Below are positions 2,280 through 33,937 of a stretch of 34,013 bases of DNA, one piece after another; the stretch's first letter is position 1; each line of letters begins with the position of its first letter. The notes beneath the pieces are model-generated. The model worked only from the letters and a program-made list of their open reading frames with translations, searched no databases and was not told where the DNA came from. The DNA is taken from contig CADCBB010000025.1 in the NCBI GenBank assembly GCA_902799555.1, forward strand, positions 1-34,013, given 5' to 3'. The position numbers and the translations under genes were made by a program. The stretch comes from an uncultured Bacteroidales bacterium (GTDB lineage Bacteria > Bacteroidota > Bacteroidia > Bacteroidales > Paludibacteraceae).

Positions 2280-2307
2280 GGGTTATGGGTTACGGGTTAT
2301 GGGTTAT
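2280..2307 (-). repeat. Heptameric tandem repeat, four units (GGGTTAT type)
   Basis: Four contiguous 7-bp units (GGGTTAT or GGGTTAC on the plus strand) fill the junction between the two permease genes. The last unit contains the stop codon of the upstream permease (2304-2306). Confidence 0.85.
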
Positions 2308-3479
2308 TTGAGGGGATAATTCCAATAGACGAGGGCTCTATGCAGACGCGGGGCGACGCAGAGGGCGGCAACGAGGAAGGCGTTGAGCGCCAACATATGC
2401 GGGATACTGTTCTCGACAGGTGCAGCCATCAGGGCTTCGTTAACATAGATGAGATAATAATGGCGAAGGGGTTCGAGGTACGAGAGTGCCTTAACCGGCG
2501 CCAACATCGACATCTGCGGATAGGTGAAACCCGAAAGCGAGAACCCGAGCATGGAGTACAGGGCACCTATCGAGAGGGCGTCACGGAGCGTAGGAAGCAA
2601 GCCTATGAGGGTGATACCAAGGGCTTTCATGGCGAAGATGAACAGCATTAGACCGAACATCAAGCGGGTTGTGCTGCCATAGACCGGGAAGCCTGCAAAA
2701 CGATAGAGGATGAGATGGCAACCGACACCAAGGACGAAGTACATGACCGAGTAAGGAAGAAGTTTACCGATCATCGCGACCGTATAGTTACCTCCTGCGG
2801 CACGCAGCCAGGCGTGGGAAGTGCGCATCTTAAGTTCAAACCCGATCGCGAAGATGGTGAGCATCAAACAGATGAGGCCTAAGATACCCGGCAGGATGGT
2901 ACTGACGAGATAGACGGAGTAGTTTCCCCAAGGGTTGGCAACCATATGGCCTTCGATAGCGAGGGGTTGGATACGATGCATAATGACATCGTCCGGCAGG
3001 CCTTTCTTACGGAGCACCTCGCGTTGGAAAGCGCCGGAAGTAAGATTGACCATGGTGAGCATCTGCTTATAGGCCGTGTTACCGCCAACGGTATAGGCAT
3101 TGGTGACATAGAAGTCCATCTGCGGCCGTTTGAAGGCAACGAGGTCGCTGTAGAAGCCCTCTGGAATGACGAAGATACCATAGATCTTCCCCTGCTGCAT
3201 GGCCTTGCGGGCCTCCGGGTAGGAGTTCGTGATGAGTTGGATATCGACCGAAGGGGTCGCCTGCATCTCATGGATGAGTCGACGGGAGATAGAGGTCTGG
3301 TCGAGGTCCACTACTGCTACCGGCATGTTCTCCGCCGTTCCGCCTTTCATAAGGGTAAGGAAGAAGAAGGTAGAGAGCAACATAACGCCGACCGAAGCGA
3401 ACATGTACAGCGGTCGTGCGAACATCATTTTGAGTTCGCGCTGCGTCACACGCCATATGTTTATGAAGATGTACTTCAT
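2304..3479 (-). CDS. ABC-2 type transporter permease (first of pair)
   Basis: A 391-residue inner-membrane permease of the ABC-2 superfamily, homologous to the next gene. It has an N-terminal helix (about residues 24-44, MFASVGVMLLSTFFFLTL), then a soluble domain with MPVAVVDLDQTSISRRL and GKIYGIFVIPEGF, the usual landmarks of YhhJ/YbhR-like permeases. C-terminal hydrophobic helices run from about residue 190 to 375. The ATG at 3479 is the only sensible start. It sits between the HlyD gene and the second permease, separated from each by a heptameric repeat. In this type of cluster the permeases work with the adjacent HlyD adaptor and TolC channel to export an unknown small molecule or lipid-like compound. 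Confidence 0.9.
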   Translation of the reverse strand: MKYIFINIWRVTQRELKMMFARPLYMFASVGVMLLSTFFFLTLMKGGTAENMPVAVVDLDQTSISRRLIHEMQATPSVDIQLITNSYPEARKAMQQGKIYGIFVIPEGFYSDLVAFKRPQMDFYVTNAYTVGGNTAYKQMLTMVNLTSGAFQREVLRKKGLPDDVIMHRIQPLAIEGHMVANPWGNYSVYLVSTILPGILGLICLMLTIFAIGFELKMRTSHAWLRAAGGNYTVAMIGKLLPYSVMYFVLGVGCHLILYRFAGFPVYGSTTRLMFGLMLFIFAMKALGITLIGLLPTLRDALSIGALYSMLGFSLSGFTYPQMSMLAPVKALSYLEPLRHYYLIYVNEALMAAPVENSIPHMLALNAFLVAALCVAPRLHRALVYWNYPLK

Positions 3480-3484
3480 TAATT

Positions 3485-3515
3485 ATTGGTCATTGGTAAT
3501 TGGTGATTGGTCATT
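3485..3515 (-). repeat. Heptameric tandem repeat, four units (ATTGGTC type)
   Basis: Units ATTGGTC, ATTGGTA, ATTGGTG and ATTGGTC followed by a partial ATT. The array fills nearly the whole junction between the hlyD stop and the permease start. Confidence 0.85.
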
Positions 3516-4504
3516 TATTCAGCAATCAAGGCAGTCATTCCCGGACGAAGATTCGGAATAGTAGTTGTCGGCCGACACTTGACATCGAACGTGCGGACGT
3601 CGTATCCGCCATTTTGCTTGGTGGAACGCCAGGTAGCATACGTGCCCATCGCTTTGACGTGCGTGACGGTCAAGGGGTACTTGGTGTCCGTGCCGAGCGC
3701 AGGGATGGTTACTTCCACGACACTTCCCATCGGGAAATGCGACAACAGATCTTCGCGCACAGCGAACGTGAACCATACATCGTTGAGATCCACAATAGAC
3801 ATCACCGGACTACCCTGCCCTACCAGTTCACCTACTTTTGGGAAGAGTTCCGATACCTCACCGTCGCAAGGCGATAAGAGGTATTTCTCCGCTTCAGCAG
3901 CAGCTACTTCCTGCAAGATACCATCGACCTTGGCCACCTGTGCCTCCGCCGCAGCTTTGTCTTCCTCCCGTGCACCGGAGAGCGCCATCTGGTACTGACT
4001 TCGTGCGGCTTTGACGGTTGCCTCCGCGGCTTTGTACTGCGCCTCTACCTCGTCGCGTTTCTGCGCGCTGACGACTCCTTTCTCATACAGACGCTGCACA
4101 CGCTCGTAGGACTTGCGATAGATCTCCTCACCGGCCTTAGCCTTCTGATAGAGTTCATACGCTCCTTGTATCTGCTCTCGTTGTGCACCGTTCTTGGCCT
4201 TCTGGTTGACGGCCTCTGCCATCTCACGGGCAGCGAGTGCCTGGGCTTTCTTAGCCTCCACTTCCGGAGAGTAGATGACGACAAGCGTGTCACCCTTCTT
4301 GACCTGCTCGCCTTCTTCGTACAAATACATCTCGATACGTCCCGGCACCTTACCGGACACGCGGTATTCGGCAGCTTCCGCTTCACCCTGGATGAGCGTC
4401 TTCTCCGGACGGAGAGCCAGTACACCTACGACCGCAACAATAACGACTACTGTGAGGAGAGCAATCAGACCTAACAGTAGACTTCCTTCTTTTTGATGTT
4501 TCAT
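3515..4504 (-). CDS. HlyD-family periplasmic adaptor (membrane fusion protein)
   Basis: A 329-residue periplasmic adaptor that links inner-membrane permeases to a TolC-like outer-membrane channel. The N-terminus has one membrane anchor (about residues 9-30). A split biotinyl-lipoyl domain follows (VSGKVPGRIEMYLYEEGEQVKKGDTLVVI), then a long alanine/glutamate/lysine-rich alpha-helical hairpin (about residues 75-205), the second lipoyl half (LLSPCDGEVSELFPKVGELV) and a beta-barrel domain ending in LRPGMTALIAE. The start is the ATG at 4504, one base away from the TolC gene stop at 4506, which indicates coupled translation. The architecture is complete and of usual length for the YbhG/EmrA-like class. 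Confidence 0.93.
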   Translation of the reverse strand: MKHQKEGSLLLGLIALLTVVVIVAVVGVLALRPEKTLIQGEAEAAEYRVSGKVPGRIEMYLYEEGEQVKKGDTLVVIYSPEVEAKKAQALAAREMAEAVNQKAKNGAQREQIQGAYELYQKAKAGEEIYRKSYERVQRLYEKGVVSAQKRDEVEAQYKAAEATVKAARSQYQMALSGAREEDKAAAEAQVAKVDGILQEVAAAEAEKYLLSPCDGEVSELFPKVGELVGQGSPVMSIVDLNDVWFTFAVREDLLSHFPMGSVVEVTIPALGTDTKYPLTVTHVKAMGTYATWRSTKQNGGYDVRTFDVKCRPTTTIPNLRPGMTALIAE

Positions 4505-4505
4505 C

Positions 4506-6471: not shown

Positions 6472-6543
6472 TTTTCAGTTTTATTTTGCCGTATTTGTTG
6501 TAACAAAAAGCGTGCCAAATGCAACACTTTATATTTTATTTTT

Positions 6544-7191
6544 TTATATTTTATTATACCAGTTTTCGAGTTTTTCGTTGAACTCACGGCGTGTGAGGGT
6601 CTGTGCCCAGGTTCGGACATCGGTTGTATGGTCTTCAAAATGCAGGGTCACCGTGCGACGCCATTTCCATTGTTTAGGTTTGAGTTTGGACCAACGGCTG
6701 GTCTCCAGCCCCCGCATGCGGCAGAGGATAACACGCACGTTGTCCGGCAGTTCACGGCACACTTCGTACGCCATGCGACGGTTTCCAATGACTTCTTTAT
6801 CGATGGTCTTGACATGTCCCGAAGGATAGAAGCAGATCTGCTTACCGGCTGCGAGACTATCGATGGCGATCCTACTCAAGCGGGAAGCCGCTTCGGCTTT
6901 GGCCTTGAGCCCTTCCCCGTCCGCCTTGAGCAAGTCCGGCACCTCGATGGCGTCGGCTTTGCGAAGGATATGACCGTAGAACTTGTGGCGCATAAAGAGT
7001 TCGTCCACTAAGGGGCAAATCGGCAGCCACCATTCCTCGGAAAAGAGGATGAGCGGATCAATGTACGCGGTGTGATTCGGCAGGACGAGGTGCGTGGAGT
7101 CATCCCGGAGCAGGTCTTCCCCGGTGACACGAATATCGTAATGCCAATGAAAGAAAAATCGAACGATTTTAGCTAATGTATATCTATTCAT
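6544..7191 (-). CDS. Lysophospholipid / 1-acylglycerol-3-phosphate acyltransferase family protein
   Basis: A 215-residue PlsC-like acyltransferase, transferring acyl chains from acyl-ACP or acyl-CoA to a glycerophosphate-type acceptor at the inner face of the membrane. The catalytic HX4D motif is seen as NHTAYID near residue 40. The second conserved block is FYPSGHVKT, in the place of the usual FPEG motif and divergent from it. The open frame extends to a TTG at 7194, but the ATG at 7191 is preferred. The gene is separated from the HAD gene by a heptameric repeat and lies 72 bp upstream of the lipoprotein gene. The altered FPEG-like block means the acceptor may differ from lysophosphatidic acid. 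Acylation of an ornithine or other lipid is possible. Confidence 0.8.
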   Translation of the reverse strand: MNRYTLAKIVRFFFHWHYDIRVTGEDLLRDDSTHLVLPNHTAYIDPLILFSEEWWLPICPLVDELFMRHKFYGHILRKADAIEVPDLLKADGEGLKAKAEAASRLSRIAIDSLAAGKQICFYPSGHVKTIDKEVIGNRRMAYEVCRELPDNVRVILCRMRGLETSRWSKLKPKQWKWRRTVTLHFEDHTTDVRTWAQTLTRREFNEKLENWYNKI

Positions 7192-7192
7192 C

Positions 7193-7230
7193 AATGTATA
7201 ATTTACAATTTACAATTATCAATTTACAAA
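7193..7230 (-). repeat. Heptameric tandem repeat, about five units (AATTTAC type)
   Basis: Units AATGTAT, AATTTAC, AATTTAC, AATTATC and AATTTAC on the plus strand occupy the junction between the HAD gene and plsC. The stop codon of the HAD gene (7224-7226) lies in the last unit. Confidence 0.85.
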
Positions 7231-7853: not shown

Positions 7854-7868
7854 TTTTTTGTCAAAAAA

Positions 7869-7900
7869 TTTGCGTATCTCAAATAATTGTAGTACCTTTG
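7869..7900 (+). promoter_or_regulatory. Promoter for tRNA-Pro
   Basis: TTTG (7869-7872), 20-bp spacer, TACCTTTG (7893-7900). The predicted start of transcription is only a few bases before the mature tRNA 5' end at 7917. Confidence 0.8.
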
Positions 7901-7916
7901 CACGCTTTTTTGAGCG

Positions 7917-7991: not shown

Positions 7992-7996
7992 CCGGT

Positions 7997-9565: not shown

Positions 9566-11662
9566 ATGAAAAAAATACATGTTTTTATTATGGCATTGAT
9601 GGCGTTGGTTGGCGCGAGTTGCCAAAAAGCAGAAGAAGGTAAGGCTCCTATCACGAAGCCGCAGATCACGATTGAAGGCGGTCGTCTGACGCCGGAAGGT
9701 CTCTGGGCAATGGGTCGAATCGGTAGTGTAAAGAGCGATATCGAGACTGGTCTGCTCGCATATACAGTAAGTTACTACAGCGTAGAAGAGAACCGGAGTA
9801 CGACCTGGATCCGGATTTGCAACCCGTTCGAGAATATGCAGGTGGTGGATGAGTTTGTAGGTTCCGAGCCGGCATGGTTCGGTAATAGCGGTGCGTTGGC
9901 GTACCTCAAAGGCGGCAAACTCTATCTCCGTCGCGACAAAGAGGAAGTGGAGGTAGAAGGCACAGAGGATATCGAAGGTTTCCTACTCTCCCCGATGCGC
10001 GACAAGATCATCCTCGTCAAGCAGGTAAAGACCGTTCCCACGACCGCGGACAAGTATCCTGATCTGCCGTTGGCAACCGGTCATATGCACGAGGATCTTA
10101 TGTACAAGCATTGGGACGAATGGACCGAGACCGCACCGCAGCCTTTTGTATGCGATCTGGAGATCACCTATTACGGCGAGGGCGAACGTATCAAGACGGC
10201 GAAGATCGGAGAGCAGGTCAATATCCTCGAAGGAACAGCCTACGAATGCCCCATGAAACCGTTTGGCGGCGTGGAGCAGTTGGCTTGGAATCCCAACAAC
10301 GAGGAGATCGCTTATACCTGCCGCAAGAAGACGGGGTTGGAATATGCCATCAGTACGAACAGCGATATATACCTATATGATTTACGTACGCGTGCGCATA
10401 AGAATCTGACGAGTGACAACAAGGGATATGACACCAACCCGACTTACTCGCCGGACGGTAAGCATATCGCTTGGCAATCCATGGCGCGGGACGGCTATGA
10501 GAGCGATGAGAACCGCTTGATGGTGCTGGATTTCGAGACCGGCGAGAAGAAATTCCTGAGTCGAATCATGGATACGAACGTGGATGAGTACGCATGGTTA
10601 GACGACACGAGTCTGGTCTTCACCGCTTGCTGGCATGCAACCGTGCAGCTCTATAAAGTGGACCTGAAGGGTTGGGTGACTAAACTGACCGAAGGTCAGC
10701 ACGACTTAGGCATAGGTGACGTAACAGACTATAACGTCTGGACCTTGGTGCACTCCATGCGGCAGGCAAATGAGATTTATCGGTTAGCGATTAAGGATGA
10801 GGGAGTTAGTGAGTTAGTGAAACTGACGCACGAGAACGACAATATCTACGATCAGATTGAACGTTCGACCGTAGTGCCGAGATGGCAGAAGACGACAGAC
10901 GGCAAAGATATGCTGACCTGGATTATTTATCCGCCGCATTTCGATCCGAATAAGAAATACCCGACGATCTTGTATTGCGAGGGTGGTCCTCAAAGTCCGG
11001 TGAGTCAATTCTGGTCTTTCCGTTGGAACTTTATGATGATGTCTGCCGGCGATTATATCATCGTCGCTCCGAACAGACGTGGTCTGCCGGGCTTCGGCAT
11101 GGAGTGGAATGAAGAGATCTCCGGCGACTACGGAGGTCAGTGTATGAAGGATTATTTCACGGCTATTGACGAGTTCTGCAACGAGCCGTATGTGGATAAG
11201 GAGCATTTAGGCTGCGTAGGTGCGTCGTTCGGCGGCTTCAGCGTCTATTGGATCGCCGGACACCATGATGGACGATTCAAGGCATTCATTGCACACGATG
11301 GTATCTTCAACCTGGAGATGCAATACCTGGAGACCGAAGAGAAATGGTTTGCTAACTGGGATATGGGCGGTGCTTATTGGGAGAAAGACAACAAGATCGC
11401 ACAGCGTACGTTTGCAAACAGTCCGCATAAGTTCGTGGACAAGTGGGACACCCCTATTCTCTGTATCCACGGCGAGAAAGATTACCGCATCTTGGCGAAC
11501 CAGGCTATGGCTGCCTTCGATGCCGCGAAAATGCGAGGCGTACCGGCAGAGTTGCTGATCTTCCCGGACGAGAACCACTGGGTCCTCAAACCCCAGAACG
11601 GCATCCTCTGGCAACGCGAGTTTAGAGGATGGCTTGATAGATGGTTGAAAGTTGAAAATTGA
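9566..11662 (+). CDS. S9 family prolyl-oligopeptidase-type lipoprotein (DPP5-like)
   Basis: A 698-residue serine peptidase. The signal peptide ends in the lipobox VGASC (Cys19), so it is probably anchored to a membrane facing the periplasm. The N-terminal half is a beta-propeller with PD40-like repeats such as NPTYSPDGKHIAWQS. The C-terminal part is an alpha/beta hydrolase with the nucleophile in GASFGG (Ser554). It continues with HGEKDYR (Asp639) and ENHWV (His671), a complete catalytic triad. This layout matches the S9C group with DPP5 and acylaminoacyl peptidases, which release dipeptides in asaccharolytic Bacteroidales. Substrate preference cannot be fixed here. It heads a three-gene operon, and its last codons lie inside a heptameric repeat. 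Confidence 0.92.
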   Translation: MKKIHVFIMALMALVGASCQKAEEGKAPITKPQITIEGGRLTPEGLWAMGRIGSVKSDIETGLLAYTVSYYSVEENRSTTWIRICNPFENMQVVDEFVGSEPAWFGNSGALAYLKGGKLYLRRDKEEVEVEGTEDIEGFLLSPMRDKIILVKQVKTVPTTADKYPDLPLATGHMHEDLMYKHWDEWTETAPQPFVCDLEITYYGEGERIKTAKIGEQVNILEGTAYECPMKPFGGVEQLAWNPNNEEIAYTCRKKTGLEYAISTNSDIYLYDLRTRAHKNLTSDNKGYDTNPTYSPDGKHIAWQSMARDGYESDENRLMVLDFETGEKKFLSRIMDTNVDEYAWLDDTSLVFTACWHATVQLYKVDLKGWVTKLTEGQHDLGIGDVTDYNVWTLVHSMRQANEIYRLAIKDEGVSELVKLTHENDNIYDQIERSTVVPRWQKTTDGKDMLTWIIYPPHFDPNKKYPTILYCEGGPQSPVSQFWSFRWNFMMMSAGDYIIVAPNRRGLPGFGMEWNEEISGDYGGQCMKDYFTAIDEFCNEPYVDKEHLGCVGASFGGFSVYWIAGHHDGRFKAFIAHDGIFNLEMQYLETEEKWFANWDMGGAYWEKDNKIAQRTFANSPHKFVDKWDTPILCIHGEKDYRILANQAMAAFDAAKMRGVPAELLIFPDENHWVLKPQNGILWQREFRGWLDRWLKVEN

Positions 11663-11677: not shown

Positions 11678-12386
11678 ATACAGCTATAATTACGAGATAA
11701 AGTATCAGGAGGTAGACGGGAAGAAGAAACTGCGTCTCTTTAACCTGGAGAACTATCTGCTGGAGGTAGCCGGAACGGTTGCCGATGAGCTGGGATTCGG
11801 TATCCAAGTGCTGCATCCGAGAGGCGTGACATGGATCCTGACGCGGCTCTCCGTAGAGATGTACGAACTGCCGACACATTGCGAGAAGGTACGTTTTGAG
11901 ACATGGATAGAGAGCAACGCACATATGCTGAGTACGCGTGACTTCCGGATCTACAGCGGTGATAAACTCATCGGGCAATGCAAGTCCGTGTGGGCGGTAC
12001 TGGATTTGGAGAAACGCGAGATCGTCAATATCTTCGACGACCCGATCTTCGAGGGTTGCGTAGACGGCGAAGTACTGGATATGCCGCGCGTACGAATGAC
12101 GACCATCCCTGAACCGACGGGCTGCGTGCCGCATAAAGTGGTTTATTCGGATATCGACTATAACGGGCATTGCAACAGTTGTCGGTACCTGCAGGCTATG
12201 ACCGACGCCTATCTGCCGGATTATTACGGCAAGAAAGTGCGGCTCGATATCAATTACAGCAAAGAGGCTATGCTGGGCGAGACGCTGCAGACGAATTATC
12301 TCGTCACGGAAGACGGCGTGCAATACCAGCAGAAGAACGAAGCCGGCGAGACGAGTTGTTCGGCGAAAATAACGATTAACGATTAA
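11673..12386 (+). CDS. Acyl-ACP thioesterase
   Basis: A 237-residue double hot-dog protein of the acyl-ACP thioesterase family (PF01643), which releases fatty acids from acyl carrier protein. The first hot-dog begins YEIKYQEVDGKKKLRLFNLENYLLEVAG and continues with RGVTWILTRLSVEMYELPTHCEKVRFETW. The second carries SDIDYNGHCNSCRYLQAMTDA, the usual position of the conserved aspartate, asparagine and histidine region. The start is a GTG at 11673 within a heptameric repeat, 10 bp after the S9 peptidase stop. No in-frame ATG gives a full domain. The last residues (TIND) are also encoded by a heptameric repeat, so both ends of this gene have been shaped by repeats. Confidence 0.88.
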   Translation: MKYSYNYEIKYQEVDGKKKLRLFNLENYLLEVAGTVADELGFGIQVLHPRGVTWILTRLSVEMYELPTHCEKVRFETWIESNAHMLSTRDFRIYSGDKLIGQCKSVWAVLDLEKREIVNIFDDPIFEGCVDGEVLDMPRVRMTTIPEPTGCVPHKVVYSDIDYNGHCNSCRYLQAMTDAYLPDYYGKKVRLDINYSKEAMLGETLQTNYLVTEDGVQYQQKNEAGETSCSAKITIND

Positions 12387-12398
12387 GGATTAGCGATT
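12371..12398 (+). repeat. Heptameric tandem repeat, four units (AACGATT type)
   Basis: Units AACGATT, AACGATT, AAGGATT and AGCGATT end exactly at the ATG of the next gene (12399). The thioesterase stop codon (12384-12386) spans the second and third units. Confidence 0.88.
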
Positions 12399-12896
12399 AT
12401 GGAGATTCAAGATGGTTCAACCCTATTAAAACGTCCGACGGAGTTGGAGGCGGATGTGGTGCGCTTTCAGAATCAGAAAGATAAATGGATTGCATTTGTG
12501 GGTCTAAAGGACGGAAAACCGTACGAGATCTTCACAGGTCTGGCCGACGACGAGATGGGTATCGCGTTGCCGAAGAGCGTGACGAAAGGCAAAATCATCA
12601 AGGTCGTGCAAGAAGACGGCAGCAAGCGGTACGATTTTCAATTCGTGAACACGAGAGGTTTCAAGACGACGGTAGAGGGATTGAGTTATAAGTTCGACCG
12701 CGAGTTCTGGAACTATGCCCGTTTGATCTCCGGCGTACTCCGCTACGGCATGCCGATCGATCAGGTGGTTCATATGATCAGTGGTCTGCAGATGGACAGC
12801 GATTCGATCAACAACTGGACGACGGGTGTAGCACGCGTATTAAAAAGATACATCCCCGGCGCTGTGGCCGAGGATGATCTCACTTTTCTGCAATAA
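12399..12896 (+). CDS. Free-standing C-terminal (TSCPD-type) segment of class II ribonucleotide reductase
   Basis: A 165-residue protein resembling the C-terminal region of adenosylcobalamin-dependent ribonucleotide reductases of Bacteroidetes. Landmarks are RPTELEADVVRFQNQKDKWI, then a YEIFTGL segment, RYDFQFVNTRGFKTTVEGLS and FWNYARLISGVLRYGMPIDQ. In the full enzyme (roughly 850 residues) this follows the catalytic barrel and precedes a zinc-binding tail. Here there is no barrel upstream, and the protein stops before any CxxC tail. It is therefore not a ribonucleotide reductase by itself. It has an in-frame ATG directly after a heptameric repeat and no internal stops, so it may be a working stand-alone domain rather than decay. 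It is third in the S9 peptidase operon, and its 3' end overlaps that of RNase G by 17 bp. Confidence 0.78.
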   Translation: MEIQDGSTLLKRPTELEADVVRFQNQKDKWIAFVGLKDGKPYEIFTGLADDEMGIALPKSVTKGKIIKVVQEDGSKRYDFQFVNTRGFKTTVEGLSYKFDREFWNYARLISGVLRYGMPIDQVVHMISGLQMDSDSINNWTTGVARVLKRYIPGAVAEDDLTFLQ

Positions 12897-18217: not shown

Positions 18218-18258
18218 AACAAAAAAAAGTGAGCAGCACACACGTACTACCCACTTTT
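18218..18258 (-). terminator. Terminator of the LRR protein gene
   Basis: A 12-bp stem between 18225-18236 and 18247-18258 (G-T pairs allowed) with a 10-nt loop. Read on the minus strand it ends in eight T residues. It lies 18 bp after the LRR gene stop. Confidence 0.78.
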
Positions 18259-18272
18259 CACTCTTCACTTTT
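18252..18272 (-). repeat. Heptameric tandem repeat, three units (CACTTTT type)
   Basis: Units CACTTTT, CACTCTT and CACTTTT on the plus strand lie directly after the LRR gene stop. The last plus-strand-left unit also forms one arm of the terminator stem. Confidence 0.75.
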
Positions 18273-18275
18273 CAG

Positions 18276-21200: not shown

Positions 21201-22211
21201 AGACTCTAAATTTTTACAATTATAAAAAGTCATATTTTTTATACTTGTCGCCCCTCCTATTACTACAGATGTCAGAGATGTACAATGCTGAAATGCGCTA
21301 ACTCCTATACTTGTAACCGTATTGGGAATAGTTATTGATTTCAAGTTTTTACAATTAACAAAAGCATAATTACTGATACTTGCAACGTTACCTGGAATAG
21401 TTATATTTGCTAATAACTCCATATTTAGATACAAGTTCTTGGCGTAAGATAATGGATTCGCATAGTATCCCCCGAATGATATATTGCACCAGGTTAGTAT
21501 GTCCGAAACATTAACTGAAGTTAATCCACTGCATGAAAAGAACGCACTATCACCAATATTTGTAACACTATTCGGTATAATAATAGATGTTAAATTTTTC
21601 ATGCCATAACAGAGACATGAAGGTATCTTCTTAACATTGTTGCCAAATGTAAAAGTTTGTACGGAAGATGCAAATGGAGGATGTGTTCGGGAAAAATTGT
21701 TACAACTTTGAGCATTCCACTCAATGGATACAACATTACTACACCCAAAAGCATCTGAGGACATACTTGTAACTCCTCGCCCAATAGAAATAGATGTTAC
21801 TCCAGAACAATTTCCATAGGCACTAGTTCCAATATTTGTAACTCCATCAGGCAAGGTAATAGTATTTAATCGTATGCATCCGTAAAAAGAGTATGCTCCA
21901 ATTTTTGTAATACTGCTTGGGATTTCTATAGACGCCAATTTGGCGCAATTATAAAAAGCCCTATTACCTATACTAGTAATTCCTTCTGACAAAGAAACTG
22001 TTGCAATGTACGAGACATATTCATACCAAGGAACACTGTTGTTAGTTGACCAATTTGTCATAGTACCACTTCCCTCTATGACGAGTGTGCTATCGCGAGT
22101 GTTTAATACCCAGGTAAGATTAGTACCACAAGTTCCATCAATAATGGCTGCTTGGCAAATATATACACATGCAAATAATGTTAATAAAAGAAGTGAAATC
22201 TTGTGTTTCAT
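18276..22211 (-). CDS. BspA-like leucine-rich-repeat surface protein with InlB-type repeats
   Basis: A 1311-residue exported protein. A signal peptide (residues 1-21) is followed by about 600 residues of BspA-type LRR_5 repeats with the rhythm SIGxxAFxxCxxLxxITIPxxV. A divergent InlB B-repeat-like domain follows (about 643-705, ending FSHWSDGNTDNPRTIVV). Next comes a second repeat array of about 24 residues per unit with the pattern CYxxMFxGCxxLxxAPxLPA (about 815-1030), then Listeria-Bacteroides repeats (VNFVDWDGAII, REGYTFIGWD; about 1085-1270). The C-terminus IREGNVYILFDNKTYTLQGQ resembles a short T9SS-type sorting tail, which fits PorU encoded nearby. Such proteins mediate adhesion to host or to other bacteria. 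Codon use is visibly AT-richer than in the flanking genes. No clear promoter was found upstream, and the gene before it ends 12 bp away. Confidence 0.88.
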   Translation of the reverse strand: MKHKISLLLLTLFACVYICQAAIIDGTCGTNLTWVLNTRDSTLVIEGSGTMTNWSTNNSVPWYEYVSYIATVSLSEGITSIGNRAFYNCAKLASIEIPSSITKIGAYSFYGCIRLNTITLPDGVTNIGTSAYGNCSGVTSISIGRGVTSMSSDAFGCSNVVSIEWNAQSCNNFSRTHPPFASSVQTFTFGNNVKKIPSCLCYGMKNLTSIIIPNSVTNIGDSAFFSCSGLTSVNVSDILTWCNISFGGYYANPLSYAKNLYLNMELLANITIPGNVASISNYAFVNCKNLKSITIPNTVTSIGVSAFQHCTSLTSVVIGGATSIKNMTFYNCKNLESIELPNSISSIGKQAFYGCQKLSTLTIPNSVKTIGISAFEECSSLNNVIIPNGVTDINDKTFYRCSNLVHVDIPNSITKIGAEVFYQCKRLSSITIPSKVNSIGENAFYACDSLYVVTLESNVSGSIYGQQVKEYIIGTNVTRIGDNAFRGCNSLHAVSIPHSISYIGNYAFSQSPIQKISINSDKYVGMDYTEVYTQNCFANKIGLDYPIRELILGDSITKIGINAFRYEPLTTITIPKNVTSIGDNAFYNTLTEVVCKATTPPTSKSSSFPNKNIPLYVPEESIELYSNAIWWEEFYQILPIPSGSYTIYTDAINGHVEGAGEYESGTSISLVAIPNEGYIFSHWSDGNTDNPRTIVVSEDATYTAIFRSELSSDDFLFTSYQNGSTIGLSSLASHQVIEYSRNGTTWINMTTATSITLNNGDSVYMRGVLSDNNTSTDYTQFTMTGAIAAYGNINYLWNYANLNAPLKEYCGANLFKDCVGLIYAPELPSTELADYCYIGMFRGCSSLSSAPVLPAMTLTDHGYCSMFRECTSLISAPSLPATTIAASCYTSMFQGCTNLTLAPTILPAQTLADYCYQSMFSGTAISTAPELPATTLAPCCYVSMFQDCASLMSAPSLMAESLTDYCYWRMFRGCTSLTSAPTILPATNLTTYCYNQMFMQTAITSAPELPAKTLGDYSYNQMFYQCSLLNYIKCLATNISATGCTQGWVNGVASSGTFVKNSKMTSWTNGNNGIPTGWTIQNYVVNEYVVNFVDWDGAIIKTEQVISGESATAPADPMREGYTFIGWDRDFSNVTENMTITAFYKIKRYRVEFLDWDNTILKRDSVDWNTSATAPLDPIREGYTFIGWDKDYHNITEDLTVTAQYELGENANFIVIFNTKEGDEILSNDITLKVPAAPEINGFTFLGWRPKATIIDNNVIEIEAIYEANEETSLQEVIINSNNSAQKLIREGNVYILFDNKTYTLQGQEVR

Positions 22212-25111: not shown

Positions 25112-27994
25112 ATGCGCATGCGTATATACATAGTGTTAGGAATGCTCCTGTGCTGCCTTTCGGCGGTACGGGCAGAGGATAGTATACCGCAAGATACAGT
25201 ATTCAGAAATCAGTATTCAGATACCCTATTGGTAGATACGTTGACGATGGACTCATTGGCGACGGATACGCTGACGATGGACTCATTGGCGACGGATACG
25301 CTGACGATGGATTCGGTGAAGGTGATGCCGAAGAAGAAGAGTGATTTGAAGGCGCCGGTACATTATCAGGCGAGTGATTCGATGATTATGATGGGGAATG
25401 GAACGGCATTCCTGCACGGTAAGGGCGAGCTCAAATACGAGAAGATGGAATTGACGTCGGAGTTTATCCGAATGAACCTGGACAGCAGCCTTATCTACGC
25501 GCATGGCGTATATGACACGCTGAACTACGAATGGAAAGGTAAGCCGGTCTTCAAAGACGGGAAGGACAGTTACGAGACGAACGAGATCACGTATAACATC
25601 AAGACGCAGAAGGGTTATATCCGGCATGTCGTGACGCAGCAGGGTGAGGGATATATCATCGCGGACAAGACGAAGAAGATGCATGGCAATGAAATGATGC
25701 TTGCCGGCGGACAATATACCACGTGTGACGACCACGACCATCCTCACTTCTACCTCAAAATGACGAAAGCGAAAGTGAAGCCGGGCGATTATATTGCCGC
25801 AGGTCCATCCTATATGGTAGTGGGCGACGTGCCTTTGCCTCTGGCGATCCCCTTCGGTTTCTTCCCCTTCACCCAATCGTACTCGAGCGGAATCATTATG
25901 CCGAACTTCGGTGACGATTACAGCAGAGGTCTGTATCTGAGCAATTTCGGATACTACTTCGCGCTATGCGATTACATGGATCTGGAGTTGACGGGCGACG
26001 TGTATTCGAAGGGAACTTGGGCTATCCGCGGTAAATCGCGGTATATATGGCGATACCATTTCTCCGGCAATTTGAGTATCAACTACCGTAATGATGTGAC
26101 AGGAGAAAAGGGCATGCCGGGCTATGCAAAGCGCAATAACTTCAGCGTAGCCTGGACGCATACGCAGGACGCGAAAGCGAATCCGTACAGCACATTCTCC
26201 GCGAGTGTCAACTTCTCGACCAGCGGTTATAACCGCGATAACATCAACAGTTACTACAACCCGTCCTTGTATTCGGAGAACACGAAGAGCAGTAGCATCA
26301 GTTATCAGCAGCGTTTTCCGGACAGTCCGTGGAGTTTGAGCTTGAGTGCGAACCTGACGCAGCGTACGAGTGACTCGACGATCAGCCTGACCGCACCGCA
26401 GTTGACAGTGAATATGAGCAGCCAGTATCCGTTTAAGTTATTGCGCCAGGCAGTGCTCAAACGTAAGGGACAAGTGGGCGGCAAGGAGAAATGGTACGAG
26501 AAGATCAGTATGAGTTATTCGGGCGAAGGACAGATCCGAACGAACAACATGAAAGAGAAAGAATTTCTGCATTCGAATTTCTTCCGCGATTGGCAAACGG
26601 GAATGCGTCATTCGGTACCTATCCGCGCCAGCTTCATGTTGTTCAAATACTTGTCCGTGACGCCATCGATCAACCTGCGTGACCGCATGTACTTCACGCG
26701 AATCGATCAGATGTATGACACGATCGGTCAGAGCGTTGTGCAAGATACGACGAATGGTTTCTACAACGTGTTTGATTTTGATATGGGCCTGAATTTCAGC
26801 ACGAAGCTATACGGATTCTACACGCCGCTGAAGAAATTATTCCCGAACAGCAAGATTGAGAAAATCCGCCATGTGCTGACGCCGAGATTCGGTATATCGT
26901 ATCACCCGGATTTCGGGCAGTCTTTCTGGGGTTATTACGGATCGTACGACCAGCCTGTTTATTACAAAGACTCGCTGGATGCGGCAGGCAAGCGTGTGCC
27001 GACCGGCGAAGTAGTCAAACAGACCTATTCGCGCTTTGCGAACAGCCCGTACGGCAATGCAGCGCAAGGGACATCCGCGACGCTGACATTCGGCGTGCAG
27101 AACAACTTGGAGATGAAAGTGGTCAATTCCGAAGATACGACAGGTAAGAAGCCGTATAAGGTAGTGAGCCTGATCGATAACTTTTCTGTCGACGGAGGCT
27201 ATAACTTCGCTGCGGACTCCATGAACTGGAGCTTATTCACGGTGAACCTGCGTCTGAAATTCCCGAAGTTGAACAACTACAGCCTCAATATCTCCACGAA
27301 GCTGGATCCGTATATGTACGAGTTGAACGCGTTTGGCAAGCCTGTTCGAACGAACAAGCAGTACTGGCATAACGGTCGCTTCCCGCACTGGGACGGTTTC
27401 AGTTGGAACTTCAGTTATACCATCAGCGACCAGACGATCCGTAAATGGCGGAATGAGATCGCCAAGAAACGCGGGGAGAAAGTGAATGATGCAAATGAGG
27501 GGAATGATGCGAATGATGAAACGAACCTCGATGCGATCGAGAAAGATGGTGAAGGCTTAGAGACAAACGGTAAGCTCAACAACAAGAAGAAAAACGAAGA
27601 GGTAGAAGACGGGTATATCAAGACCGAATTCCCATGGAGCATATCGATCAACTATTCGCTGGCATACCGCAACGGAAGTGAGTTCGATTACGAGAAGATG
27701 CAATACAAGATGAAATGGCGTAACTCGTTGAGCCTGAACGGAAGTCTCGGTCTTGGTCAAGGATGGAAAGTGAGCGCGAATATGACGTATGACTTCGATT
27801 ACAAGAAAGTGACGAGTTGTACGTTCAACGTAAGCCGTGACCTGCACTGCTGGAATATGAGCGCGAGCATAAACCCGATCGGACCATTTAAGAGCTATAC
27901 GTTCCATATCGGCGTGAATGCGTCGATCTTGAGCGATCTTAAATATGATAAAAACAGTAATGAATCAACCAATAGTAGAACAGAATGGTGGTAA
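25112..27994 (+). CDS. lptD: LptD-family outer-membrane LPS assembly protein
   Basis: A 960-residue outer-membrane protein that inserts lipopolysaccharide into the outer leaflet. A signal peptide (residues 1 to about 20, CCLSAVRAE) is followed by a low-complexity linker with a 10-residue tandem repeat (DTLTMDSLAT). An OstA/LptA-like beta-jellyroll domain comes next (HYQASDSMIMMGNGTAFLHG to about residue 220). The long C-terminal beta-barrel is rich in aromatic, alternating strands (for example SYSSGIIMPNFGDDYSRGLY). An acidic/lysine loop (about 790-830, NDANEGNDANDETN) interrupts the barrel. The frame is open from 25028, but this lies upstream of the promoter, so the ATG at 25112 is chosen (25118 is also possible). 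It is followed by slyD after a heptameric repeat. Confidence 0.9.
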   Translation: MRMRIYIVLGMLLCCLSAVRAEDSIPQDTVFRNQYSDTLLVDTLTMDSLATDTLTMDSLATDTLTMDSVKVMPKKKSDLKAPVHYQASDSMIMMGNGTAFLHGKGELKYEKMELTSEFIRMNLDSSLIYAHGVYDTLNYEWKGKPVFKDGKDSYETNEITYNIKTQKGYIRHVVTQQGEGYIIADKTKKMHGNEMMLAGGQYTTCDDHDHPHFYLKMTKAKVKPGDYIAAGPSYMVVGDVPLPLAIPFGFFPFTQSYSSGIIMPNFGDDYSRGLYLSNFGYYFALCDYMDLELTGDVYSKGTWAIRGKSRYIWRYHFSGNLSINYRNDVTGEKGMPGYAKRNNFSVAWTHTQDAKANPYSTFSASVNFSTSGYNRDNINSYYNPSLYSENTKSSSISYQQRFPDSPWSLSLSANLTQRTSDSTISLTAPQLTVNMSSQYPFKLLRQAVLKRKGQVGGKEKWYEKISMSYSGEGQIRTNNMKEKEFLHSNFFRDWQTGMRHSVPIRASFMLFKYLSVTPSINLRDRMYFTRIDQMYDTIGQSVVQDTTNGFYNVFDFDMGLNFSTKLYGFYTPLKKLFPNSKIEKIRHVLTPRFGISYHPDFGQSFWGYYGSYDQPVYYKDSLDAAGKRVPTGEVVKQTYSRFANSPYGNAAQGTSATLTFGVQNNLEMKVVNSEDTTGKKPYKVVSLIDNFSVDGGYNFAADSMNWSLFTVNLRLKFPKLNNYSLNISTKLDPYMYELNAFGKPVRTNKQYWHNGRFPHWDGFSWNFSYTISDQTIRKWRNEIAKKRGEKVNDANEGNDANDETNLDAIEKDGEGLETNGKLNNKKKNEEVEDGYIKTEFPWSISINYSLAYRNGSEFDYEKMQYKMKWRNSLSLNGSLGLGQGWKVSANMTYDFDYKKVTSCTFNVSRDLHCWNMSASINPIGPFKSYTFHIGVNASILSDLKYDKNSNESTNSRTEWW
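25201..25221 (+). repeat. Heptameric repeat inside lptD (ATTCAGA type)
   Basis: Units ATTCAGA, AATCAGT and ATTCAGA in the codons of the linker after the signal peptide. Only three imperfect units, but the 7-bp period matches the intergenic arrays. Confidence 0.5.
25235..25320 (+). repeat. 30-bp tandem repeat in lptD (DTLTMDSLAT linker)
   Basis: Three 30-bp copies (25235, 25265 and a partial one at 25295) that differ by single bases encode a repeated 10-residue unit after the signal peptide. Copy number could vary without breaking the frame. Confidence 0.9.
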
Positions 27995-28000
27995 ATAAAG

Positions 28001-28028
28001 TTTAAAGTTGAAAGTTTAAAGTTGAAAG
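28001..28028 (+). repeat. Heptameric tandem repeat, four units (TTTAAAG/TTGAAAG)
   Basis: Alternating units TTTAAAG, TTGAAAG, TTTAAAG and TTGAAAG fill the gap between the lptD stop (27994) and the slyD ATG (28031). Confidence 0.88.
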
Positions 28029-28030
28029 AT

Positions 28031-29891: not shown

Positions 29892-29925
29892 TTTTTTAAG
29901 AAAAAATTGCATAATTGCATTTTTA

Positions 29926-29957
29926 TTTGCATATATGCAAAAAAAGTTGTACCTTTG
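29926..29957 (+). promoter_or_regulatory. Promoter with perfect palindromic -33 box for the FAH-porU operon
   Basis: TTTG (29926-29929), 20-bp spacer, TACCTTTG (29950-29957). TTTGCATATATGCAAA (29926-29941) is a perfect 16-bp palindrome. Two further TTGCAT half-sites lie just upstream (about 29907-29920). A CCGGTT-tag-AACCGG hairpin (29962-29976) lies in the leader. Confidence 0.83.
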
Positions 29958-30007
29958 CACGCCGGTTTAGAACCGGAGCAAGATATCCATTCGGCGAGTA
30001 GGGTAAA

Positions 30008-30532
30008 ATGAAAATTATCGGTTTTGTATATCATAACGGCAGTACTGAGATGGTGCTGAAAGGCGACAGTTGTCTGCTGAATGGACGCAAGCCGTTCTTT
30101 ATGCCCGACTGGAGTGAAGCGATAGGTGTGACCCCCTGTATGATCCTGCGGGTAAGCCGTTTAGGCAAGGAGATCGCCCCTAAGTTCGCCGACCGTTACT
30201 ACGATGCGGTGGCGCCCGGAGAAGATTTTGTAGCCTTGGATATATTGCGCGAAGCGGAGAAAGAAGGTAAGCCGTGGACAAAGGCTTTGGCGTTTGACTA
30301 CTCCTTATCCATCGGAGAGTGGATCGATAAAGGTGAAAGGTTAAAGGTGAAAGGTGAAAGTCTTATCATCTCCCCTGAAGAAGCGATTGCGGAGGCAAGT
30401 AAGGTAATGACCATTCGGCAAGGGGATTTGATATATATCCAAGCGAAGCAAGACCCGAAGCCGGTACAGAAAGAAGATGTCCTTCGTGTCGAAATAGAAG
30501 GCGAAGAAAAATTGTATTGTAAGATCAAATGA
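30008..30532 (+). CDS. Degenerate fumarylacetoacetate-hydrolase (FAH) family protein
   Basis: A 174-residue protein aligning by motif with the small FAH-family proteins of Bacteroidetes. Landmarks are NGRKPFFMPDWSE, ILRVSRLGKEIAPKFADRYYDAV, GKPWTKALAFDYSLSIGEWI, and VMTIRQGDLIYIQAKQDP in the place of the usual phase-II GDLLFTGTP block. The normal metal ligands are not in place. The E-x-E of YETEIVVRI corresponds to VTPCMILRV here, and the TARDLQ segment with the aspartate is deleted. It is therefore probably not a hydrolase of the usual kind. The span encoding KGERLKVKGES comes from a four-unit heptameric repeat. Its stop overlaps the porU start by 4 bp, and an FAH-family gene next to porU is, as I recall, also found in other Bacteroidales. 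Confidence 0.75.
   Translation: MKIIGFVYHNGSTEMVLKGDSCLLNGRKPFFMPDWSEAIGVTPCMILRVSRLGKEIAPKFADRYYDAVAPGEDFVALDILREAEKEGKPWTKALAFDYSLSIGEWIDKGERLKVKGESLIISPEEAIAEASKVMTIRQGDLIYIQAKQDPKPVQKEDVLRVEIEGEEKLYCKIK
30329..30360 (+). repeat. Heptameric tandem repeat inside the FAH-like gene (AAAGGTG type)
   Basis: Units AAAGGTG, AAAGGTT, AAAGGTG and AAAGGTG plus AAAG lie in frame and encode KGERLKVKGE. Loss or gain of one unit would shift the frame. Confidence 0.9.
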
Positions 30533-33500
30533 GAAAATGGATTAGTATAATACTGTTGGCCTTGAGCCTGCCTATGATGGCAGGTATCCATTCGTATGCC
30601 GATCAGTCGGTTTTGGCGAGTGGTAAATGGGTGAAGATACGCGTGAGCGAGTCCGGCGTATGCCGTATGAGTTTCGATGAGATACGTGCTGCCGGCCTGG
30701 AGCCTACCCGTCTGCGGGTATTCGGTTATGGTGGTGCGCAGAAAGAGCAGGACTTCAGCAAGCGTAACATTGACGACCTGCCGCAGGTACCCGTTTACAT
30801 AGGCAGCAGTTATGTGCTTTTCTACGTGCAGGGTCCGATCAGTTGGATGTACAACACCTCGAATTCCCGTTTTACACACACGCGGAATACGTATTCGGAC
30901 TACGGCTATTATTTCCTGAGCGACAATGCGGGATCAATGTTGGCGCCGACGGAAGGTGCAGCTGTAAGCGGTACGCCGACAGACGTGGACACGTATGTGC
31001 TGTATAAGGTACACGACAAAGACTCGATCAACCTGATCGACCGTACGGGTGTCTCCGGCGGCGGACGTACGTTCTACGGCGAGCAGTTCGGCGCAAACCA
31101 GAGTAAGAACTTCACTTTCTCTACCCCGAACGCGATTACTTCCGAGCAGACCAAGATCTATGTGGATGTGGCAGCCAATGCTTCAACCGAGTCGTATTTC
31201 AAAGCGACCCTCAACGGCGGGACCTCCAAGAGTATTTTTATCGCATCCATCCCCGATCACTACACCTTCGGTGTGACCGGTTCGACAAGCGTGAGCGGTA
31301 CGAGTGCCGCAAATCAGCAGAAGGTACAACTGCAACTTCAGAACAGTAATGCCTCCGCTTTGGGATGGCTCAATTATATCGAGATCACGACTCCTTGTTC
31401 GTTGACGATGACCGGTGACTACATGCCGATCCGTACACTGACCAACCGCGGAAGTAATACGCCGGTGCGTTTTCATCTCAGCGGAGCGACTGCTGCTACG
31501 CAGGTATGGGACATCACCAACCTCGATGCAATCGAGAAAATGCCGGTGACGCTGAGCGGCAACGAGGCAACTTGGGTAGGTTCGCAGAAAGACGGCATCC
31601 ATGAGTATATCGCCGTTAACACGCAAGGCAGTTCGTTCGTACAAGCGACCGTGATCGGCGAGGTGAAAAACCAGAACCTGCACGCACTGAGCAACATTGA
31701 CTATGTCATTATCTGCCCAGAGGGCTATCAGGAGATAGCGGCTGATTTGGCAAGGACGCACGAAACCAAAGAGGCAATCACGTGGAAAGTGGTGACGGAC
31801 AAACAAGTATATAACGAGTTCTCTTCCGGCACGCCTGACGCGAGCGCGTATAGATGGTTAATGAAGATGCTCTATGATCGCGCCAACAACGGCCAGGGCA
31901 ATAAACCTCGTTGGCTGCTGCTCTTTGGTCACGGTTCGTTTGATAACAGAAACCTATGCCAAACACAATACGGTTCTTCCACTTCGGGCGCAAAATTACT
32001 GCTGACCTATCAGGCGGAGAACTCCGTCAATGAAGTGAACGCCTACGCTTCGGACGACTATTTCGGTTGGTTGGACGATAACGAAGGAGCATCGGACAAG
32101 AAAGCCAAGATGGATATCGGCGTGGGACGTCTGCCGGTTGTGGACCTCGAAGAGGCCCGTACGACGGTAGATAAGTTGATTGCATATATGGAGAACGACC
32201 AACCGGGCAAATGGAAGAACCAATTGGTTTATCTGGCCGACGACGGCGAGAACGGCATGCATACCGATACGGCAGAGAAGAGCGCGGAACTGGTACGGGT
32301 GAAGAACCCTGATTTTGTGGTGCATAAGATTTTCCTGGATGCCTATCCGCAAGAGGTGAACGCCAGCGGAGAGAGCTACCCCTTGGCCAAGAACCGCGTA
32401 CTCAACCTGCTTAAAAACGGTGTGCTCTTCTTCGACTATTCCGGACATGGCGGTTATAATGCGATCACCAGTGAGTCTATCCTCAATCAGAAAGATATCG
32501 AGCAGATGACCAATAAGAAACAGGCTTTCTGGCTATTTGTGACTTGTAATTTCGCACAATGCGACGGCGGTCGGCGCAGTGCTGCTGAGTCGGCGGTACT
32601 TAACACGCGCGGCGGCGCTATCGGTATCTTGTCTGCGACACGAACGGTATATGCCGATCGGAATACCAGCCTAAACCGTGCGATCTGTGACACCCTCTTC
32701 GGACATAAAGATGCGTTCCATTACGAAATGACGCTTGGCGAAGCGGTTGCTATCGGAAAGAACCAACTGAGCGATGAGAACCGCCTGGCGTATGTGCTGT
32801 TAGGCGATCCGGCTATGCGGCTTCATTTCCCGACCGACTATCAGGTACAGACGCTGACGCAAATGGACACGCTCAATGCGCTGAGTGTACAACAGGTAGA
32901 GGCGCAGATCATCGATAAAGACAGCCTGCTTGTCAGCGATTTCAACGGCACGGTAGATATCACGATCTACGATAAGATGCAATCCATCCCGACGCGTGAT
33001 AACGACCAGGCGGGCGGAGATCCGAAGGTAGTTGCCTACAACGACTACCCAAGCACTATCTTCTCGGGTTCGACCAACGTCAAGGACGGACATTTCAGCT
33101 ACACCTTCATGGTACCGAAAGATATACGGTACAACTACGGCAACGGGCGTATCGTTTATTATGCACACGACGACACCTATAACGAGGACGCCGTCGGCCA
33201 TTTTGAACAGTTTGTTATTGGCGGTACAGGCTCCATTGTCACGGCAGACACCACGGGACCGCTGATGAACATCTACCTCAACACCCCGAGTTTTATGGAC
33301 GGCGACAAGACCTACTCGACTCCGCGTTTCTTTGCCGAACTGGAAGACGAGAACGGAATCAACACAGCCGGCGCAGGTATCGGTCACGACCTGCAACTGA
33401 CCATCGATAATGACCTCAAACAAGTATATATCCTTAATGACTATTTCACCACGGCGAACAACAGTTACCGTCAAGGAATGGTGAACTATCTCATGGAGGC

Positions 33501-33888
33501 TCTTCCGGACGGCATGCATACGCTGACTTTCCGTGCATGGGACTTACTGAACAACAGTACCTCCAAGAGTCTGAATTTCATCGTCGAAGCCGGACTCGAT
33601 CCATCGATCGTCTCCGTCACGACCTACCCCAACCCTGTGCAAGCAAGCGGTGTAGTGAAGATGATTGTGCTGTACGACCAATTGGACGAACTGCTTGAAA
33701 CGGACTTGTATCTATTTAATACTAACGGTCAGATGGTATATAGCCACCATCAGGATAACCCGGACGATGTATCGATTAATATTGGCGAATTGGGAGTCCA
33801 ACCGGGTATCTATTTATATTCTATTCGTATCAAATCCGCATCGAGCCAATACAGTATGATGTCGGGTAAAATTATTGTAACTCATTAG
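30529..33888 (+). CDS. porU: Type IX secretion system sortase PorU
   Basis: A 1119-residue C25-family (gingipain-like) cysteine peptidase. PorU removes the C-terminal signal of T9SS cargo at the cell surface and attaches the cargo to anionic LPS. A signal peptide (residues 1 to about 19) and the N-terminal PorU domain (SVLASGKWVKIRVSESGVCR, RVFGYGGAQKE) are followed by the peptidase core. The catalytic histidine is in FDYSGHGGYNAI (His640) and the cysteine in LFVTCNFAQCDGG (Cys673). The C-terminal region holds beta domains and ends in a retained T9SS-type tail (YPNPVQASGVVKM, QPGIYLYSIRI, SGKIIV). The ATG at 30529 overlaps the FAH-like gene stop. Transcription is probably from 29926-29957. 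The start of another exported protein follows after 72 bp. Confidence 0.93.
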   Translation: MRKWISIILLALSLPMMAGIHSYADQSVLASGKWVKIRVSESGVCRMSFDEIRAAGLEPTRLRVFGYGGAQKEQDFSKRNIDDLPQVPVYIGSSYVLFYVQGPISWMYNTSNSRFTHTRNTYSDYGYYFLSDNAGSMLAPTEGAAVSGTPTDVDTYVLYKVHDKDSINLIDRTGVSGGGRTFYGEQFGANQSKNFTFSTPNAITSEQTKIYVDVAANASTESYFKATLNGGTSKSIFIASIPDHYTFGVTGSTSVSGTSAANQQKVQLQLQNSNASALGWLNYIEITTPCSLTMTGDYMPIRTLTNRGSNTPVRFHLSGATAATQVWDITNLDAIEKMPVTLSGNEATWVGSQKDGIHEYIAVNTQGSSFVQATVIGEVKNQNLHALSNIDYVIICPEGYQEIAADLARTHETKEAITWKVVTDKQVYNEFSSGTPDASAYRWLMKMLYDRANNGQGNKPRWLLLFGHGSFDNRNLCQTQYGSSTSGAKLLLTYQAENSVNEVNAYASDDYFGWLDDNEGASDKKAKMDIGVGRLPVVDLEEARTTVDKLIAYMENDQPGKWKNQLVYLADDGENGMHTDTAEKSAELVRVKNPDFVVHKIFLDAYPQEVNASGESYPLAKNRVLNLLKNGVLFFDYSGHGGYNAITSESILNQKDIEQMTNKKQAFWLFVTCNFAQCDGGRRSAAESAVLNTRGGAIGILSATRTVYADRNTSLNRAICDTLFGHKDAFHYEMTLGEAVAIGKNQLSDENRLAYVLLGDPAMRLHFPTDYQVQTLTQMDTLNALSVQQVEAQIIDKDSLLVSDFNGTVDITIYDKMQSIPTRDNDQAGGDPKVVAYNDYPSTIFSGSTNVKDGHFSYTFMVPKDIRYNYGNGRIVYYAHDDTYNEDAVGHFEQFVIGGTGSIVTADTTGPLMNIYLNTPSFMDGDKTYSTPRFFAELEDENGINTAGAGIGHDLQLTIDNDLKQVYILNDYFTTANNSYRQGMVNYLMEALPDGMHTLTFRAWDLLNNSTSKSLNFIVEAGLDPSIVSVTTYPNPVQASGVVKMIVLYDQLDELLETDLYLFNTNGQMVYSHHQDNPDDVSINIGELGVQPGIYLYSIRIKSASSQYSMMSGKIIVTH

Positions 33889-33913
33889 CCTATGAAACAT
33901 ATCGCTGAATAAA

Positions 33914-33937
33914 ATTGAAAATTGAAAGTTGAAAATT
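33914..33937 (+). repeat. Heptameric tandem repeat, three units (ATTGAAA type)
   Basis: Units ATTGAAA, ATTGAAA and GTTGAAA followed by ATT lie between porU and the next gene. Confidence 0.85.

Follow-up and report, generated by a model that had tools for sequence, protein, structure and literature searches.

Short heptanucleotide arrays with a recurring vocabulary and unit turnover between sister species in a lineage of uncultured Bacteroidales

Heptanucleotides are the commonest class of long simple sequence repeats in most prokaryotic genomes, and a link to DNA polymerase has been proposed (Mrazek, Guo and Shah 2007, via PMC4679880, PMC4692102). For the dominance of period 7 in bacterial repeats, these sources offer the polymerase footprint as a guess (PMC4679880, PMC4692102). 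TAACTGA direct repeats occur in marine Beggiatoaceae, in some Cyanobacteria and in five Bacteroidetes including Paludibacter propionicigenes (PMC4679880), and the GGGAATC and GGGGA(C/T)T repeats of Xanthomonas and Nostoc are G-quadruplex-type units at conserved places (PMC4692102). Geobacter metallireducens carries four tandem heptamers in 49 copies within and between genes, and another class with five heptamers in 15 of 16 sites (PMC2700814). Heptanucleotide repeats of several heptamer families are also found in the cyanobacterium Calothrix (cited in PMC4692102). Outside bacteria, the tandem repeats of archaeal Borgs evolve fast, arise independently, are enriched in A and lie both in and between genes (PMC9879509). 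Microdiversity loci are small variable segments between conserved flanks, often in frame in genes, and change by replacement more often than by insertion or deletion; the replacement of segments is in itself already known (PMC2884548). Our search of the literature, in which few subscription journals were covered, found no description of sister species that have swapped heptamer units at orthologous positions and no papers on tandem repeats in Paludibacteraceae.

The window analysed here is a stretch of 34,013 nucleotides, contig C25 of a Bacteroidales MAG. An earlier note had listed ten arrays in it, all with a 7-bp period. Arrays were detected with TRF and with a strict ungapped lag test, and the chance level of lag-7 runs per window was obtained from 200 shuffles. 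Eight of the ten arrays were recovered with lag-7 scores of 13–19 (Table 1), whereas only 0.02 runs with a score of at least 12 are expected per shuffled window. The array at 18252 is weak, and the one at 25201 has to be regarded as noise, since 43.7 runs are expected at a score of 5 or more. By the strict lag test no period from 3 to 13 other than 7 reaches a score of 12 in the window; periods 14, 15, 16 and 18 do, 14 being a multiple of 7. The placement of eight arrays at gene ends proved correct (those at 2278, 3485, 7193, 11644, 12370, 18252, 27996 and 33911), and the two off gene ends are those at 30329 and 25201. The statement that each array repeats a different unit holds for the strong arrays of the window, but several units differ by one or two letters (AAAGTTG, AAAGTTT, AAAGGTG and AAAATTG) and units recur genome-wide. 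The array at 3485, for example, matches eight further places in the genome by BLAST, and the larger sample described below contains seven arrays of its class.

Table 1. Period-7 arrays of the window with their gene context and the evidence for each
Feature	Position	Strand	Context	Evidence
Heptamer array, sense unit ATAACCC	2278..2307	-	Spans the stop of the ABC-2 permease gene (2304-3479) and the start of the next gene (1128-2279)	Lag score 17; TRF; gene calls; Pfam ABC2_membrane_3
Heptamer array, sense unit AATGACC	3485..3515	-	Between the HlyD-like gene (3515-4504) and the ABC-2 permease gene	Lag score 15
Degenerate heptamer array	7193..7224	-	Flanked by the HAD hydrolase gene (stop at 7224) and the acyltransferase gene (6544-7191)	Lag score 13; Pfam for neighbouring genes
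Heptamer array GTTGAAA/GGTGAAA	11644..11678	+	Holds the dpp5 stop (gene 9566-11662) and runs into the thioesterase start (11673)	Lag score 19
Heptamer array TAACGAT	12370..12399	+	Holds the thioesterase stop and ends at the start of the next gene (12399)	Lag score 14
Weak heptamer array	18252..18274	-	Directly 3' of the stop of the BspA-type LRR protein gene (18276-22211)	Lag score 10; 0.17 expected per window at a score of at least 10; Pfam LRR_5
Listed array, noise	25201..25221		Inside the LptD ORF	Lag score 5
Heptamer array TTTAAAG/TTGAAAG, 14-bp higher order	27996..28028	+	Directly 3' of the LptD stop	Lag score 17; 100% at period 14; Pfam LptD_2
In-frame heptamer array AAAGGTG, one TGA-to-TTA variant	30329..30360	+	Inside the FAA-hydrolase-like gene (30008-30532), peptide KGERLKVKGES	Lag score 19; Pfam
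Heptamer array ATTGAAA	33911..33934	+	22 bp 3' of the stop of the C25 peptidase gene (30529-33888)	Lag score 14; Pfam

To assess the period spectrum of the genome, we analysed a sample of 824,280 bases, made up of the window and 40 stretches of the same MAG, which measures 2.34 Mb in 82 contigs and is 86% complete. Strict arrays of period 7 numbered 127, compared with 39 of period 8, 13 of period 11 and 10 of period 9, and the remaining periods were rare (four arrays of period 6, one each of periods 5 and 10). One Markov shuffle of the first 424 kb of the sample gave no strict period-7 array. Periods are thus not evenly spread over 6–9 bp, and seven is the commonest of periods 5–11 and above chance, as in the known class of heptanucleotide long simple sequence repeats. 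The supposition of the earlier note that one shared process with a period of seven is at work is supported. The arrays have a GC content of 29%. Arrays of periods 8 and 11 have their own, separate vocabularies.

For comparison with relatives we used the best 80 named loci matched with the dpp5 protein, which come mostly from MAGs of uncultured Bacteroidales or Paludibacteraceae, many of them from ruminants or horses, and which include eight loci of Bacteroides and allies. A genus-like set of 43 loci (L049-L085 and six others) was picked by dpp5 identity, with a few loci at 70–71% excluded. The density of period-7 arrays per 100 kb was 14.8 in the genus-like loci, 6.7 in the 29 more distant loci and 1.1 in the eight loci of Bacteroides and allies. 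Among ten congeners the density is patchy, with values of 14.0, 1.0, 10.0, 0, 4.0, 17.0, 13.2, 0, 7.4 and 5.0 (G001-G009 and G011) that rest on samples of 20–100 kb. Other families of the order had five period-7 arrays in 310 kb, and E. coli had none in 50 kb.

The same sites differ widely between relatives. At the dpp5-thioesterase junction an array is present in 16 of 30 loci, i.e. the window and 15 of 29 relatives, with many different units. The junction of the thioesterase with the next gene has a period-7 array in nine of 28 loci, the window included; the array of L065 is nearly the same as that of the window, and L117 has none. The loop that holds the in-frame array at 30329 was followed in 19 relatives, where it is occupied by other heptamers (L215, L228), by hairpin-like elements (L214, L216, L218, L219, L221) or by other sequence. 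We then compared four pairs of sister species, with one genome per species and with sites picked for an array in one of the two genomes. The 79 arrays gave 46 non-redundant mapped sites, as 15 were unmapped and 18 were duplicates. The sister had the same unit at 12 sites, a different heptamer array at nine and no period-7 array by our rule at 25. Inspected by eye, these 25 sites are a mixed group: at some the sister retains a shorter or decayed array from the same family, at others it has degenerate heptamers from a different family, an array with another period or a hairpin-like element, and some are clean absences. In total, 27 of the 46 array sites were less than 70% identical between sisters and 19 were conserved, compared with 54 of 835 mapped random 32-bp windows (1,200 drawn) below 70% by the same measure. 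Mean flank identity was 93–95% in all three unit groups.

On balance, at slightly better than even, we think that a lineage-specific mutational process writes the arrays and that tolerance filters them. Such a process would place short runs of tandem 7-nt units, as a rule four complete units and a few bases, at many points of the genome. Purifying selection would spare those that do little harm, namely arrays just past stop codons between co-directional genes and arrays in frame inside genes. An existing array can change by whole 7-bp units, and the loss of array sites, or their exchange for a different array or short repeat, outpaces the divergence of the flanks. Several units of an array would be written at once. 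The writer is probably a DNA polymerase that, while filling a gap or during repair, copies about 7 nt of its product over again, and the arrays themselves would serve no function. The features on which this account draws are direct observations, namely the period of the arrays, their length and placement, their vocabulary and their turnover.

Array length bears on how the arrays are made. Among the 127 arrays of the genome, 75 have four whole units, 32 have three, 15 five, three two and two six, so that the mode is four whole units (28–34 bp) and the typical array has about four and a half copies. The score threshold works against short arrays and favours longer ones. The other species of the group share the four-unit mode (72 of 175 arrays), but their tail extends further, 53 of 175 arrays having at least five units. 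One explanation would be ordinary replication slippage that extends a heptamer already present step by step, the polymerase footprint favouring a step of seven nucleotides, as suggested by Mrazek and colleagues in the form relayed by later papers (PMC4679880, PMC4692102). The dominance of period 7 is consistent with slippage, as is the fall of mismatch-free runs of at least 17 bp with length (56, 18, 15 and 1 at two to five units). Copy number also changes by whole units between sisters, where same-unit arrays differ by +7, +21, +28 and +70 bp, with the exception of one site that differs by 8 bp and one by -13 bp with an inserted hairpin. In addition, some shorter alleles keep part of the array, e.g. 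in G023 compared with G024 at 28928. However, by a count that does not depend on the score threshold, isolated two-copy duplications of 7 bp are not in excess: 82 were observed and about 82 are expected from shuffles (60.3 + 18.0 + 3.7). Together with the four-unit peak, this chance-level count suggests that arrays may arise already long. Slippage also does not readily account for the larger gains where no array was detected in the sister (26, 28, 30, 33, 34, 47 and 70 bp), five of seven of which are not multiples of 7, or for the 65 of 127 arrays that lie in predicted genes, where 7-bp steps would shift the frame. We therefore regard stepwise slippage as unlikely, if still deserving of weight. 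In favour of the proposed writing process, serial copying would give two features of the arrays outside genes, where adjacent units differ less than distant ones (0.110 versus 0.159 differences per site) and variants share a column in 397 versus 159 pairs. A slight excess of transversions inside arrays was given no weight.

Next, units were merged over rotation and strand into heptamer classes. Fifty classes cover the 127 arrays of the genome, which form 250 same-class pairs. Only 8.4 pairs (maximum 22) are expected when units are drawn as local heptamers, and 24.4 (maximum 41) when letters are permuted. The idea that the units are unrelated in sequence is therefore contradicted genome-wide. 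The class was also present in genus-like loci for 87 of the 127 arrays, against 17.1 expected with letters permuted. With our own genome omitted, class sharing is 6.8% within genomes and 1.6% between genomes, a level reached in none of 300 label shuffles. The vocabulary is thus far from random and partly clade-specific, which a sequence-blind polymerase leaves unexplained. The Calothrix repeats, known as STRR, include the unit TTGGTCA, which equals class AATGACC (seven of 127 arrays in the genome, one of 122 in genus-like loci); the other two of the three Calothrix units compared are absent from the genome sample.

Such a vocabulary would also be expected if arrays were dispersed or exchanged as cassettes by short-tract recombination between loci or species, with the clade-specific words as a common stock. 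This possibility draws on the class sharing described above and on two shared alleles: one in the loop of the thioesterase that is common to non-sisters, and a 31–32-bp array that is identical in the window at 30329, in L043 and in L139 and that is found in L064 in a different gene. The loop allele indicates that short-tract exchange contributes, and some unit swaps may be exchanges of short-tract alleles. On the other hand, 3 of 77 imperfect arrays have an exact copy at another place in the genome sample, the same level as in a control with unit order permuted (1–5 of 77). As the earlier note had proposed, there is hence no sign of a conventional mobile repeat, and a mobile cassette is not favoured as the main route. 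Nor is class sharing within genomes beyond 5 kb (4.7%, eight genomes) above that between sisters (5.5%, a part of which comes from orthologous arrays), with non-sisters at 1.9%, and in the course of these comparisons we noticed no shared flanks or terminal repeats. Cassette exchange as the general source of the arrays appears to us rather improbable.

We then considered the placement of the arrays relative to genes. Gene calls were home-made with uncertain starts, so that assignment to the inside of a gene is approximate near starts. By these calls, 65 of the 127 arrays fall within predicted genes. Of the others, 55 are at co-directional junctions, four at convergent and two at divergent ones, and one has no further gene on one side. 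The number of arrays per kb is 1.27 in co-directional gaps, 0.45 in convergent and 0.17 in divergent gaps, and 41 of the 55 co-directional arrays touch or overlap the upstream stop, compared with 25% in a placement null. The preference for co-directional junctions claimed for the window thus extends to the genome, and arrays are denser there than in other non-coding DNA, a comparison that differs from one with shuffled intergenic DNA. These observations, and the presence of a stop codon in the units at the stop in 39 of 41 arrays in sense and only nine of 41 in antisense, could point to a selected device of operon junctions, i.e. three-frame stops, a spacing element, a translation leader or an RNA-binding site. 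The stop-codon bias is, however, largely forced by the overlap of the arrays with the stop: the 14 co-directional arrays farther from it show little bias (nine sense, seven antisense), and we rejected a stop-codon insulator for this reason. Selection on the spacing between coupled genes, raised in the earlier note, is contradicted by the dpp5-thioesterase junction, where spacing ranges from -4 to 183 bp across 30 loci, and by the patchy presence of arrays there and at the next junction. The junction arrays are too poorly conserved for a spacing device. Unlike a leader, arrays in co-directional gaps of at least 60 bp are closer to the stop (15) than to the start (5), and about half of all arrays lie in genes. 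A selected junction device is, in our view, very unlikely. Chance or an assembly artefact, which the noise at 25201 and the weak array at 18252 might suggest, is practically negligible in view of the empty shuffle, the same pattern in many other MAGs and the scarcity of arrays in E. coli and in other families of the order.

Several candidate writers were considered under the favoured account, in which a mutational process writes the arrays and tolerance filters them. Three candidates were rejected by a survey of 21 genomes. Loss of mismatch repair does not distinguish them, as MutS1 is present in all 21 including array-poor ones; Ku, required for Ku end joining, is present in none; and a reverse transcriptase (RVT_1) as template copier was found in eight of 21 and not in the array-rich G001, G003 and G006, whose MAGs are 75–84% complete. 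For Y-family polymerases, copy number showed a weak, non-significant correlation with array density (rho 0.57, p 0.07, n=11, incomplete MAGs), and IMS-family matches numbered three in the genome studied here compared with 0–2 in relatives. None of the surveys of MutS1, Ku and RVT_1 (21 genomes) or of the IMS family (n=11) named a writer. As a bolder and doubtful proposal, an enzyme might write a tract of about 30 nt in one event by repeating a 7-nt word, drawn from a small set specific to the clade, four to five times. It might also rewrite arrays in place by exchanging their word for a different one with the same period, both at gene ends and, in frame, within proteins. The large number of arrays, the sisters that differ between conserved flanks, the length of about four and a half units and the lack of a two-copy excess make slippage and one-step writing testable against each other. 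The lineage also illustrates the origin and turnover of peptides inserted in frame into proteins.

How do these arrays compare with the described systems? The heptamer excess is already in print (PMC4679880, PMC4692102), and so are the position near the upstream ORF and the four-unit mode in other bacteria (PMC4679880, PMC4692102, PMC2700814). The TAACTGA repeats have one unit and, in the genome reported, lie mostly just upstream of start codons, whereas the arrays described here usually lie at the upstream stop (PMC4679880). None of the 127 arrays of the genome and none of the 122 genus-like arrays belong to the TAACTGA class, one array of the genome contains the word, and a position just upstream of the start is not the rule in the longer co-directional gaps, where the upstream stop is more often the nearer. 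The GGGAATC and GGGGA(C/T)T repeats have more in common with our arrays: they are heptamers, with a four-unit majority in Xanthomonas, are mostly intergenic and nearer the 5' neighbouring ORF, and likewise vary in length and sequence between relatives (PMC4692102). They differ in their G-quadruplex-type units, while the units found here are AT-rich and often different between sisters (PMC4692102). Four G-tracts, judged by GGG in four or more places, were present in just two of 127 arrays of the genome and four of 122 genus-like arrays. Each of the elements of Geobacter metallireducens is a single BLAST-matched family, in contrast to the 50 classes and in-place turnover of this lineage (PMC2700814), and the repeats of Calothrix belong to another phylum.

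Among the less closely related systems, microdiversity loci share with the arrays the replacement of segments of 20–500 bp, seen here at the 27 of 46 sister sites that diverge between conserved flanks. These loci are described within species and not as heptamer arrays, whereas we compared sister species. Borg repeats are nearly perfect and have unit lengths divisible by three in ORFs; our arrays are degenerate and keep period 7 inside genes (PMC9879509), so that the divisible-by-three rule does not apply to those 65 arrays. With long simple sequence repeats in general the arrays share the abundance of heptamers, and they differ from them in being short and degenerate, in drawing on a vocabulary that recurs, in swapping units in place and in lying, in many cases, inside genes. 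What is unusual in this lineage of gut bacteria is that units are swapped between relatives and that arrays typically have about four and a half copies.

Short hairpin-like elements take up the variable sites where heptamer arrays also lie, and in some cases such an element lies within a heptamer array. In the thioesterase gene downstream of dpp5, an array-bearing loop allele is common to non-sister species (loci L068, L051, L052 and L072), whereas the sisters L062 and L050 do not have it. This distribution indicates that the loop allele was likely exchanged between species as a short tract.

The period-8 arrays have a distinct vocabulary, and many of their units are near-palindromic words like ACGTCATG/ACGTTATA. 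Period-11 arrays are intergenic in 12 of 13 cases in the sample from the window's own genome (824,280 b) and are perhaps regulator sites. Both large proteins of the window listed below are likely surface or secreted proteins.

Coordinates of the features, with examples of the period-8 and period-11 arrays
Feature	Source	Position	Remark
BspA-type LRR protein	window	18276-22211	large
30-bp repeat	window	25235-25311	LptD ORF; 2.6 copies, 97%
C25-family peptidase	window	30529-33888	large
Period-8 array	L037	7516-7549	
Period-8 array	L031	3387-3412	
Period-11 array	L145	10150-10212	
Period-11 array	L133	5815-5859	
Hairpin-like element	L221		
Hairpin-like element	L085		
Hairpin-like element	G026 (related genome)		segments partnering G025 46178 and 74004

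The window's own genome has three Y-family polymerase matches (on C19, C24 and C43), compared with 0–2 in its relatives.
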